From assembly GCF_011397635.1 (NCBI RefSeq), contig NC_064753.1, positions 36,375,822 through 36,439,821 of the forward strand: DNA of 64,000 nt. The letters are read 5' to 3'. The position numbers were made by a program, and so were the translations under genes. Numbering within the stretch: position 1 is the stretch's first letter; each line of letters starts with the position of its first letter. Positions 41,401 through 47,400 of this stretch are shown one piece after another. This stretch comes from Epinephelus fuscoguttatus. Its lineage: Eukaryota > Chordata > Actinopteri > Perciformes > Serranidae. Under the pieces are notes generated by a model. It had not been told where the DNA came from, ran no database searches, and saw nothing but the letters and a program-made list of their open reading frames with translations.

Positions 41401-44400
41401 TTAATGCAAGCATTCAACTTGCTAATCCAAATCCATAAAACTTTGGACTCACCGTGTTTGAGCTTGGAGAGCATGGACTTTTCAGCGTCAACAGAGGCAC
41501 TCTTGCCGACCAGCAGACGCTTGGCCAAGTCCTTCTTATAAAACGCTTCAAACACATCTTTCCCTGAAGGGGAAAAAAACAGAGATCAAAAGGTCTCATC
41601 AGAGAGCTTCAAGCGTCATAGTGGTTAGTTACACTGTGTCACTAAGAAAGCAAACATATGCATTCAGCCACACACATACACAGAAATGTAACTGACCGTG
41701 TATGAAACGGAAGATTATCATGATCTTATCAAGGATTCTCTCCAGCTCCTCCTCTGTAGCCTCCTTGTTTCCTGCTCTCAGCTTCGAATCCACATATTTA
41801 GCTGAATGGGAAGCAATAAACAAGGGAGCCGTTATCACATGCTGGACTCATGAAAACCACATTAAAACGTATGGATCTGAGTCACAGCTGCCATGGCATG
41901 TCGTTATTTGCTGAACCCACCAATAAGCTCAGCAGGTTTGTTGGGCCTCTTGTTGATGAAGGTCTCAAAAGCCTCCTTCATGGCATTGATGAATCCCTCG
42001 TTCCGTGCAAAGCAGCTCTGTGCTACATTGTCCATTTTGTCTTTGAAGTCCAGCAGGTCTTGGACCATGTCCTTGTCTTTCTCTGGAGTACATACGATCT
42101 CTCCACCGAAGGACTACGACCAGAAAATTTTAACAATATGTGTATGCATTTCTCAGACACAAAAGGACATGCAAATGTTTTTTCGTATATGTTGTTTGAT
42201 CTATACCTTTATGTAATCCCTCCAGAACTGCAGCAGTGTGGGAAGTCCTCCCTTCACCTTGCTGAAGAGCTGGTAGAGGAGGGCCAGCTCAGTCACACGA
42301 TTCTCATCCAGCAGGGTGCTCAGACCTGGGACAAAAATATAACATCTTTTTAGCATTTCATATATTAAACTATAAAAATTCAACTGCATTTTACAATTTT
42401 AATCAGAGGGTGTCCCTTGAAATATAATGCAAACCAAATGAACACCATAAACTGAAGCAAAAATGACCATAGAGTGACTTAGTATATTCATGTACACACA
42501 AAAATTGTACACATCAAGCTGTACAGATGTAGTATATACTGCCACACACACACACAAACACGCATGCTAACGTACAGGTCTTATTAAAGCCTTCCACACA
42601 GACATACCTTTTTGTAGCATTGCAGTCATGTGTTCTCCTAAAAGTTGTTTCTCAACACAGCTAATAAGTGGTTTCCTGTAAAATAATGAGGAAAAAAATT
42701 AGAAAATGTATCCACATATTTAAAGTCTGTCCTTTGATTCAAGAAAATGCCTTTGATCTCACCTCGTGAGCAAAATTCCCAGTCTAAGTCTGGTAATTAT
42801 TTGTTGAAAGCTAATAAAAAAAACTGGGGTTCAGGTTCTGGGGTCAGGTGCTTAAAAAACAGACTGCAAAAAAATGGATGTAGCCACCATGATATCACCC
42901 AATGGTTTTTGGACTCCTGTTTTAAAGACTTGAATTCAACATTTTGGCCATTACCACCCTGTTTTTTTGGGAGCCAGAAGTGACCGTATTCGGGTGAGGG
43001 TGGAGCTGGTTCGTGGACTGTGGTGCTGCCTTGTTGACAGCCTTTCACTCCATGCTACATGAGGTGTTATTTTTTTATTTAAGTTGCTTATTTTGTACAT
43101 ATGATGTGATTTATGTCTTGGTAGTTGAACATATAAAAAACAACTTACTGAGTGCTCTGGTCGAGGTAGCTCATTATACGATCGTTCTCCTCCTCCAACC
43201 GACGAGCCACGTGGTGCAGGTACTCAGGCACCTAAACACACACAAACACACATACTCAGTATACTAATAAATCAGCGGCGCTAAGTGTAAAACAGGATAA
43301 AATCGCCTCACTCACATCTCTCTCCTGCATCAGCTGCTGTCCCTCTGCTGCATACAGACGATTGGTCTCAATCAAAAATCTCTCCTCAAAGGAATCTTTG
43401 TAAACCTTAAAAAGAAAAAAAAAGACAGACCAGAGGTAAAAATAATGACATATTTTCAGTCTATTTTCTACTGGTTAGTTATGTAAGCAGGTGATTAGGT
43501 ACCTGTAGGTCTGACAGCATGCCCAGCAGGCTCCTGATCAGACTCCGGTCGACCGTCTCTCCATTTCGCTCAAGTTCTATCTGCTCCAAAATGCCATCTA
43601 CTGTGCGCTTCTGAACTGCACTGTCACTCACGATGTGGGTGCGAAACAGCTCCAACCCAGTGTCCCTGCAACACAGATGCACCATCAGCCTCCTGCATAC
43701 ACCTTAACAAACAGAATCATTTGCATAAACAGCAACTTTACCAGATGGAGGGTAGTAGGGAGTTCTGAAGCACATAGGTACGATCCAGGAAGAGAAAGAT
43801 GCTTCGGATCATTATCTGTAAAGAGTAAGATAAAAACTTTAAGGACACTTTCCTGTGAGTGGAACCGTACTGATATGAATATGTGTCAAACGTTAAACTT
43901 ACAGTTTGCCTGCAGTGGTCCTGCCAGCAGCGATTCATTCGCTTCAGGAAGGAAAGGTTGTCCAAAGACTCTGTGAGCTCCGTGTTAAGGAAAAAAACTT
44001 CCAATCACTCATGTCACAAAGCCAAAATTTTTAATGACTATACTTCCCAGCATCCTGTGGCAAGGCAGCATGTATAAACATATTAGTCTCACATCCTGGC
44101 TCAAAAAGATTTGGTGTTCAAGGTGGGTAACGCTAATGGTCTATACTCTGTATCCTGAGCAGACAGAGGTTGTTATTAGAAGAAAAAGAAAATGAAGTTC
44201 ATAAAGCCCAATCCCAGCTACACCCCTTGCACCTACCAATTAACGCTTACCCCTCAGTTTTGCACGCTCACATACAGGGATAGGGTGTCCCAGTTCTTAT
44301 TGAGATAAAGGGGTAGGGTGAAGTGTTGGGGCTACATGGCCCTCCAAGTGGAGGTTTTTGAGAGGCACACACAAACCAGATGTTCTGAGAAATCATCAGA

Positions 44401-47400
44401 AAGATGGCTACACATGCAACAAAGAAACCAACGAATGCATTTTCTTCATTAATAAAGATTCAAAAATGATGACACCCATCATACCATCATATTAGTATTT
44501 TGGTCCTTTTCTTTGTAACAGGCATCACAAAAGAAATCACTGGTATGCTGCTGTCTTTGTAGCTAGCTAGCTCATGTTACATTGACATTGCTAATTTGTG
44601 CATAACGCATCCACATCCATGCCACATTTCCCCCTTTGATGGCGTATGACACATAACATTTCATTTAATCCAGCAGCAAAGTTGCGACACTTGCCACTGT
44701 TCTTCTAATATAGGGAAAATTTCAACCACTACATTTTCTGAGGGGCAAGGTGGCACTTGAAAATGAAGGGTAAGTGGAATTGGGCCAAAGATGAAACAAT
44801 AGCTAGTGAGCAACTGGAGGACATTAGATATGACTGAATAAAGTAAAGCTCCTATGATTGGACTGCCTCTAATCTGAGACCATTTTGATAATCAGTGACT
44901 TGTTTAATAGTATAATAGGTCAAGCACTTTTACATCATCTGCCAGTGACAGCCACAGCTTTTTTAAGCCTCACTGGATGAATGCCAAACTTGTGTATTGA
45001 CCTCTTGTGAGAAAAGACTGCAACAACACCTGATGTGTGCCAAGAGAGCTCACACTTTCTAAATTGAGTTTAAAGCTGCCAATATAACAGACATTGGAAT
45101 CACTGACAATATTGCAGGTTTGTAATAAAAACAAACGTGCTCTCTGTTTTTGATCACAGCAGCGTGTTCAGTCTGGCTGGCAGAACTTTCACCCAGCACT
45201 GTTTTAAACAGACATTTTAAACAGACACACCTTTGCTGATACTGTTCCAACATCAGTAAATGTTGCCACAGGTTCGACAGACATAACTTGCCTTAAGTGG
45301 CTGTACACAAAAAAAGGATATTCTCTAAACTGCTGGATCTGGGCCTGCACGTGATCTTCACAGACCTGACGGAGCTGCTTGTACAGTGTTGGGGAGACTT
45401 TATACGAACACAAGTTCTCTACCGCCTTCAGGAGAGAGAGACAAGCAGAAGAGACGAGCATGAGACAAACAGAGGAGTGAAAACTTGTCACATGATTGCT
45501 TGATTTAAAAATACTGTTGGTGACTTTTATAAAAAAATTGTGTCATACTTGCTGACACTGTCACTATATTGAGACAGAGCATCTGAAAAAAATCATGTCC
45601 CTTCTCCTCTCCTACTACCTCTAATAGCATTTGCTAGAATCAGAGCACAGCACAGTAAGCAACAACCAATCAGAGCTAGAGAGTCTCTAGCTGTCAATCA
45701 TGTCTGTGGTCAAACTGTCAAACTACGCAGCACTGATCAAACGCGAGTCAAGATTCTCTTGCTGCATTGCCTATTTCTCACCTCAAATGATTTTTTAAAA
45801 ACATCTTTTATTGTACTATTTTGCTGTAAAATGAGAACGCTGGTCAGTGCTATGTGCTCCAGGTAAAGTGTATCCAACATGGCATCCAGGTCACAAACCT
45901 TCTCATTTTACAGCTAAACAGTGCACTAAAATATTTTTGTGAAAACATTTGAGGCGAGAAACATTCAGTGCAGTGACAGAATCTTAATTCATAATTGATC
46001 AGTGCTGCCTAGCTTGCCAGTTTGACCACAATTCACGAACAGTGGTTGATATAATTGACAGCTGCTTTAGAAACTTCCGGACTCTTACGGGTTGGTTTTG
46101 TTCATGTGCAGTAAGGCCATTAGAAATGCTGTAAGGCAGTAGAGTAGGCAGAGGAGTATGATTTCTTTTTACAGGTTATCTGTCTCATTTATTGCTGTAT
46201 GAATACAGCAAAGAGATATTTCATATAAAAGTTACAATCAGCAGCTTTAAAAGGTCCAGACAGCTGGTTTTATAATTTACTACAAATTATGGGCAATGTA
46301 TATTATAATGGCCTTTTTTTCTTTTAGATTTAGCCACTGGTTTCCATTCATTTCATCATTCATAGTAATATATGTACATAAAAGTGCACTGATACAGTAG
46401 AGATTCTGTTTATGATGTGACACAGTACTTATCTTCACAAGTTTATCTTAACGCTGAGCTAAAATCAACTATCTGCGACTTCAAGTCTGCACTGTGTGAA
46501 AGATCACGAGTTAAAAATAACCCACGATGCGTTAGTGTGTGTGTGTTATGTTGAATTGTTTTGTGCTGATACTTTACTATAAACCATCACTGCCACACCT
46601 CAATCAGGGTCTAAATCAAACTGCAGGTGTTTAAAAAGAAATGCAACAAACCTGATAGAGCTCTTCCAGATTGTACTTAATTGAGGTGCTGTTCTGGATG
46701 GCACCCACTGCATCTCGTAGCTTCAGCCACGTGTCCTCAGTGTAGTTCTCGGCTAGTTTTGGCCTGTCTGTTACCAAAAAAATCCAAGCAACACTGTTAA
46801 TTTATTGGTCACGCACCCTGGAAACTGCAAAACAAGCCAACGACATTCATTAATGCAAATTAATCAATATTTAACACATGAGAAGTTGCACATTTGAAAA
46901 CAATCAGTTATGATGGATTATGGTCCAGTGCAATTTTCAAAGGCTTTTTCAAAGATGCTTTTTTCAAGTAATTTCTTATTTAACTCCACATCTATAATAA
47001 AATGCAAAAAGATACAGTGTAATTTTAGTTTCCATGGTTATTATTGGGATGACCGACAATGAACTGAGGAAAGCCTTCTACACCACACACTTTGGACTCA
47101 CACAGGTAAATAAATAAACACACATTTCACGTTGCATAAAGTGCAGATAATAATCAGAATTATAGAACTTTATTTTGAGACTTCTCAATGAGTTAATCTA
47201 TCTCTGATTTCAATTATGTTAAATATGTTTAGGGCAATGGAAGTCTGCACAAATGTAGTCCTAAAGGAAACTTAGTTTTGCTTCTTTTTTTTCCCCCAAA
47301 AAATATACCCTGTACTTTTTGTTTGAGTCTGAAACATGGTTTTTTTTTTAGTATTTAATGTATAATAGCACACACCTACTAATAAGCTACCTGTATGAAA

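Follow-up and report, generated by a model that had tools for sequence, protein, structure and literature searches.

An AT-AC intron with U12-type features in a fish cul4a gene and in its cul4b paralogue

The third intron of a fish cul4a gene, located in a window of 64,000 nt that constitutes the whole stretch of DNA analysed here, is almost certainly an ordinary, conserved U12-type AT-AC intron. The splice site and branch site motifs, the protein alignment, the homologous intron in the cul4b paralogue, and the snRNA genes of the same genome with their possible pairing to the intron together make its U12-dependent splicing very likely. We infer that splicing occurs at exactly the bases given in Table 1 and that it depends on the minor spliceosome, and CUL4A levels would be expected to depend on U12 splicing as well. 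As a clean, base-exact and conserved minor intron, it would be mis-called by a few codons by a gene finder that allows GT-AG borders only. Since a U12-type intron was found in both cul4 paralogues, full-length CRL4 scaffolds in this species should need the minor spliceosome, which is a reasonable expectation rather than a new kind of finding.

Table 1. Positions of the cul4a features, the homologous cul4b intron and the candidate major-class splice sites (window positions unless a contig is given).
Feature	Position	Strand	Basis or remark
cul4a coding region, part matching human CUL4A residues 7-759	38454..48567	-	tblastn, piecewise match
Presumed cul4a start codon	few codons upstream of the 38454..48567 match, exon 1	-
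cul4a coding exon 3 (AVENLCSYK...QFRE)	45322..45425	-
cul4a coding exon 4	43903..43972	-
cul4a intron 3, probable U12-type AT-AC, 1349 nt	43973..45321	-	motifs and protein alignment
Predicted U12-type 5' splice site ATATCCTT	45314..45321	-	exact consensus match
Predicted U12-type branch site TTCCTTAAC	43984..43992	-	fits TTCCTTRAY
Predicted 3' splice site AC	43973..43974	-	intron end CAC
cul4b intron homologous to cul4a intron 3, 115 nt	L015, G000:C9:17407402-17407288
Candidate competing major-class donor CAG/GTCTGT, exon 3, first intron base 45365	45364..45365	-	PWM, speculative
Candidate competing major-class acceptor CTTCCTGAAG/, exon 4, last intron base 43942	43942..43943	-	PWM, speculative

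Gene identity and choice of the junction

A tblastn search with human CUL4A placed 20 coding exons and 19 introns of the gene on the minus strand of the window, which lies on contig C2 of the searched genome (1.05 Gb in 26 contigs). Over 408 aligned residues the gene product is identical at 330 positions to human CUL4A and likewise at 330 to human CUL4B, and this equality means that overall identity leaves the paralogue undecided. Compared with human PDB chains, the window protein scored slightly higher with CUL4B (1213.2 bits) than with CUL4A (1192.8 bits). The idea that the gene is cul4b, which arose from this slightly better chain score, was rejected by a quartet of the window gene, its paralogue in the same genome, human CUL4A and human CUL4B, in which 18 sites group the window gene with CUL4A versus 5 with CUL4B, and also by the presence of a separate CUL4B-like locus on contig C9 that is identical to human CUL4B at 386/408 residues. 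The quartet thereby favours the name cul4a that a sequence-only reading had given to the gene. Downstream of cul4a, an open frame (29874-30287, minus strand) contains the first part of a LAMP-type luminal domain (Pfam Lamp2-like luminal, E 2.7e-08). This LAMP fragment fits the CUL4A-LAMP1 neighbourhood at human 13q34; since CUL4B has LAMP2 nearby, a LAMP neighbour does not decide between the paralogues.

The junction was chosen by scoring all in-frame, stop-free pairs of splice positions in the tested ranges against human CUL4A and CUL4B. The AT-AC pair 45321/43973 reached the top score among 4705 such pairs and was tied solely with its one-base slide TA-CA, which is non-canonical and encodes the same protein. 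GT-AG and GC-AG junctions were enumerated and ruled out by their lower scores, the best of them (45308/43978) lying 16 points below AT-AC. A rival reading, in which the major spliceosome removes the intron using GT-AG sites close by and the protein gains some codons, could draw on the existence of such in-frame, stop-free pairs; we consider it extremely unlikely, as the best pair puts the six residues YPFFLT into a conserved cullin segment and its acceptor at 43978 is weak, with a score of 1.6 that lies under all 18 leave-one-out values (lowest 2.2). These values come from a position weight matrix (PWM) built from the 18 GT-AG introns of cul4a, which is small and rough. The same matrix gives -5.8 and -8.8 for the AT-AC sites, outside the leave-one-out spans of the real GT-AG sites (1.3 to 9.4 for donors and 2.2 to 14.5 for acceptors), partly because it contains only GT and AG ends.

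All of the remaining cul4a introns (18/18) can be placed as GT-AG, 16 of them at the maximum alignment score and the two after residues 145 and 255 at 1 and 3 points below it, in agreement with the earlier description of every other junction of the gene as GT-AG. The statement in the sequence-only reading that only this junction keeps the reading frame has to be narrowed: other in-frame junctions exist, and among those tested none is both canonical and protein-preserving. Its warning that gene finders restricted to GT-AG would misplace the exons by several codons is a fair one, the best such junction adding six.

Splice motifs, snRNA partners and the cul4b intron

U12-type AT-AC introns are characterized by the 5' splice site consensus ATATCCTT, the branch site consensus TTCCTTRAY, and a short distance of about 10-15 nt between branch and 3' splice site. 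Intron 3 has all of these features and ends in AC. With slashes marking the exon-intron borders, it reads GCAGTTTAGAGA/ATATCCTTTTTT ... TTCCTTAACACGGAGCTCAC/AGAGTCTTTGGA on the minus strand (45321..43973), and in the branch site TTCCTTAAC two adenosines are candidates for the branch point, at distances of 13 and 12 nt from the last base of the intron. The intron had been delimited correctly to the base in the sequence-only reading, which had it start with ATATCCTT and end with AC, and the perfect branch site that was reported to lie 12 bases from the AC was recovered at 12-13 nt for the two adenosines. A few AT-AC introns of the major (U2) class are known, and terminal AT-AC alone does not fix the class of an intron. 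That intron 3 is such a U2-class AT-AC intron may be appealed to for this reason, and the probability we assign to it is close to negligible, given the full ATATCCTT and TTCCTTAAC motifs, their 12-13 nt spacing to the intron end, and the conservation in cul4b, all of which indicate the U12 class.

Taken singly, the motifs are not rare in the window. ATATCCTT occurs four times on the minus and once on the plus strand with about 0.94 expected per strand, and TTCCTTRAY three times on the minus strand and not on the plus strand with 1.5 expected per strand. For the motif pair, in which a branch motif with a correctly spaced YAC lies no more than 5 kb downstream of ATATCCTT, a crude null of 200 first-order Markov simulations produced 1 pair, an expectation of 0.005 per strand. 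Two pairs sharing one branch site were observed on the minus strand and none on the plus strand, and only one of the two begins at an exon border. The other starts from a second ATATCCTT at 48306 on the minus strand, which lies in cul4a intron 1 off any exon border and also pairs with the intron 3 branch site within 5 kb. We give more weight to the location of the motifs, exactly at the point where the alignment of the protein requires a junction, than to the estimate of motif chance.

The homologous cul4b intron interrupts the same codon in the same phase, with the borders CAGAGA/ATATCCTTTACAG...TTCCTTAACATTGTTCTCAC/GGATGCC and the coding sequence QFRE-DALD. It shares with cul4a intron 3 the ATATCCTTT start, the TTCCTTAAC branch motif and the CAC end, whereas the two differ in length (115 versus 1349 nt). 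Among 3126 in-frame pairs AT-AC again scored best in cul4b, tied with the one-base slide TA-CG. GT-AG junctions were enumerated for this intron as well and rejected; the best one scores 22 below AT-AC and inserts 12 residues, and the AGs nearest to the AC are 24 nt away on its 5' side and 15 nt away on its 3' side, which also argues against the removal of the intron at GT-AG sites in cul4a. A comparison with the homologous intron of other vertebrate CUL4A and CUL4B genes had been proposed, and the cul4b intron of the same genome returned the same ends and branch motif. As both paralogues carry these motifs in an intron that shares codon and phase, the U12-type intron is very probably older than the CUL4A/CUL4B duplication.

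Genes for the minor-spliceosome snRNAs were found in the genome above the Rfam cut-offs, with one match each for U12 (128.8 bits), U11 (121.8 bits) and U6atac (132.9 bits) and two for U4atac (99.4 and 89.1 bits); these copy numbers are lower bounds, as only the best candidates were scored. The U4atac matches are located at G000:C13:5460111-5460237 (L018) and C24:2259481-2259609 (L019). A search of the window itself with Rfam at gathering scores gave no match. The U11 5' end AAAAAGGG can pair with positions +4 to +11 of cul4a intron 3 (45318-45311) by seven Watson-Crick pairs and one G-U pair, and in the pairing with the cul4b intron the last two bases stay unpaired. The U12 sequence GTAAGGAA can pair with the branch site TTCCTTAAC leaving one A bulged. 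The sequence criteria tested, the like motifs in cul4b and the encoded minor-spliceosome snRNAs all agree with the U12 class proposed earlier for this intron.

In the splicing reaction that we propose, U11 would pair with bases +4 to +11 of the 5' splice site region UCCUUUUU and U12 with UUCCUUAAC, the branch adenosine being bulged out, before U6atac would take the place of U11. The replacement of U11 by U6atac is an established pathway. The minor spliceosome would then join ...CAG TTT AGA GA to A GAG TCT TTG..., yielding the protein sequence ...QFRE-ESLD.... Compared with U12-type AT-AC introns in general, as far as these are covered in the excerpted text on intronIC and IAOD (PMC7367187), the 5' splice site, branch site, AC end and snRNA partners are alike and no difference was found.

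Relation to human CUL4A and candidate major-class sites

In the excerpted text of Janice et al. (2013; PMC3564746), CUL4A is listed among 18 human genes with twintrons, with a U12 product of 789 aa and a U2 product of 149 aa; the ancestral intron is given there as U12-type in all 18, and the presence of these twintrons is called highly conserved throughout vertebrate genomes. CUL4A also appears, in the excerpted text of a later report, among the cases with a U2 intron outside and a U12 intron inside (Akinyi and Frilander, 2021; PMC8329584). The fish gene resembles human CUL4A as described in these sources in containing a U12-type intron, the position of which would match that of the human one, and differs from the human report in that exact AT-AC sites are provided for one further genome and the major-class sites are candidates here. 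The finding therefore very probably represents an already described conserved intron in one more species, and we consider intron 3 ordinary for this reason. The novelty implied by the sequence-only reading falls away, as a U12-type intron in human CUL4A was published in 2013 (PMC3564746). No U12-type intron in CUL4B came up among the literature matches listed, and intron databases may well contain one; no literature joining cul4a, the minor spliceosome and zebrafish was found.

The human twintron raises the question whether the fish gene is spliced in two ways, with the U12 product as the main one and a minor fraction formed by the major spliceosome via GT-AG sites lying outside. This arrangement, which is compatible with U12-type splicing of intron 3, is modelled on the human CUL4A entry with its 149-aa U2 product (PMC3564746) and on the order of U2 intron outside and U12 intron inside (PMC8329584), and for this cul4a it is a speculation that we hold to be unlikely. 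Donor 45365 (score 6.6) and acceptor 43942 (5.7) would be a suitable pair whose use means an in-frame loss of 25 residues, and the frame also stays open when donor 45230 (8.8), located inside intron 3, is combined with the same acceptor. In cul4b an AG lies at the same offset (+31) as acceptor 43942 and scores 5.9. However, ten GT sites score at least 3.2 in the roughly 400 nt scanned, the candidate scores are raw values from the small, rough PWM of 18 introns, and acceptor 43942 lies within coding sequence under constraint at the protein level. Donor 45365 has only a weak counterpart (2.6) at the corresponding place in cul4b, and the residue of the donor codon is Ala in human CUL4A and Ile in human CUL4B, neither of which has codons starting with GT, so that no GT stands at that place in the human genes. 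In a regulated version, low minor-spliceosome activity would lead to the use of the outside pair 45365/43942, and the resulting CUL4A would keep its frame but miss 25 residues in the N-terminal part of the cullin. CRL4 activity would then follow the capacity of the minor spliceosome, on which the cul4b intron would depend equally; this version strikes us as very unlikely.

Repeat content and other open frames of the window

A dispersed repeat lies within cul4a intron 3 at 44190-44712, mostly at 44206-44606, and parts of it recur with 69-80% identity at no fewer than 39 other genomic sites (40 of 349 candidates scored, the window included). The repeat makes up part of the extra length relative to the 115-nt cul4b intron. 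Inverted repeats were not found in the window between 44100 and 44900. Of 10 open frames searched with Pfam, two had a match; the two frames holding cul4a exons 3 and 4-5 had none. On the plus strand, a 954-aa frame open from stop to stop at 9022-11886 is without a Pfam match at E 0.001, and a 330-aa open frame upstream of cul4a (53200-54189, plus strand) matches the CNH domain (Pfam E 1.9e-07).
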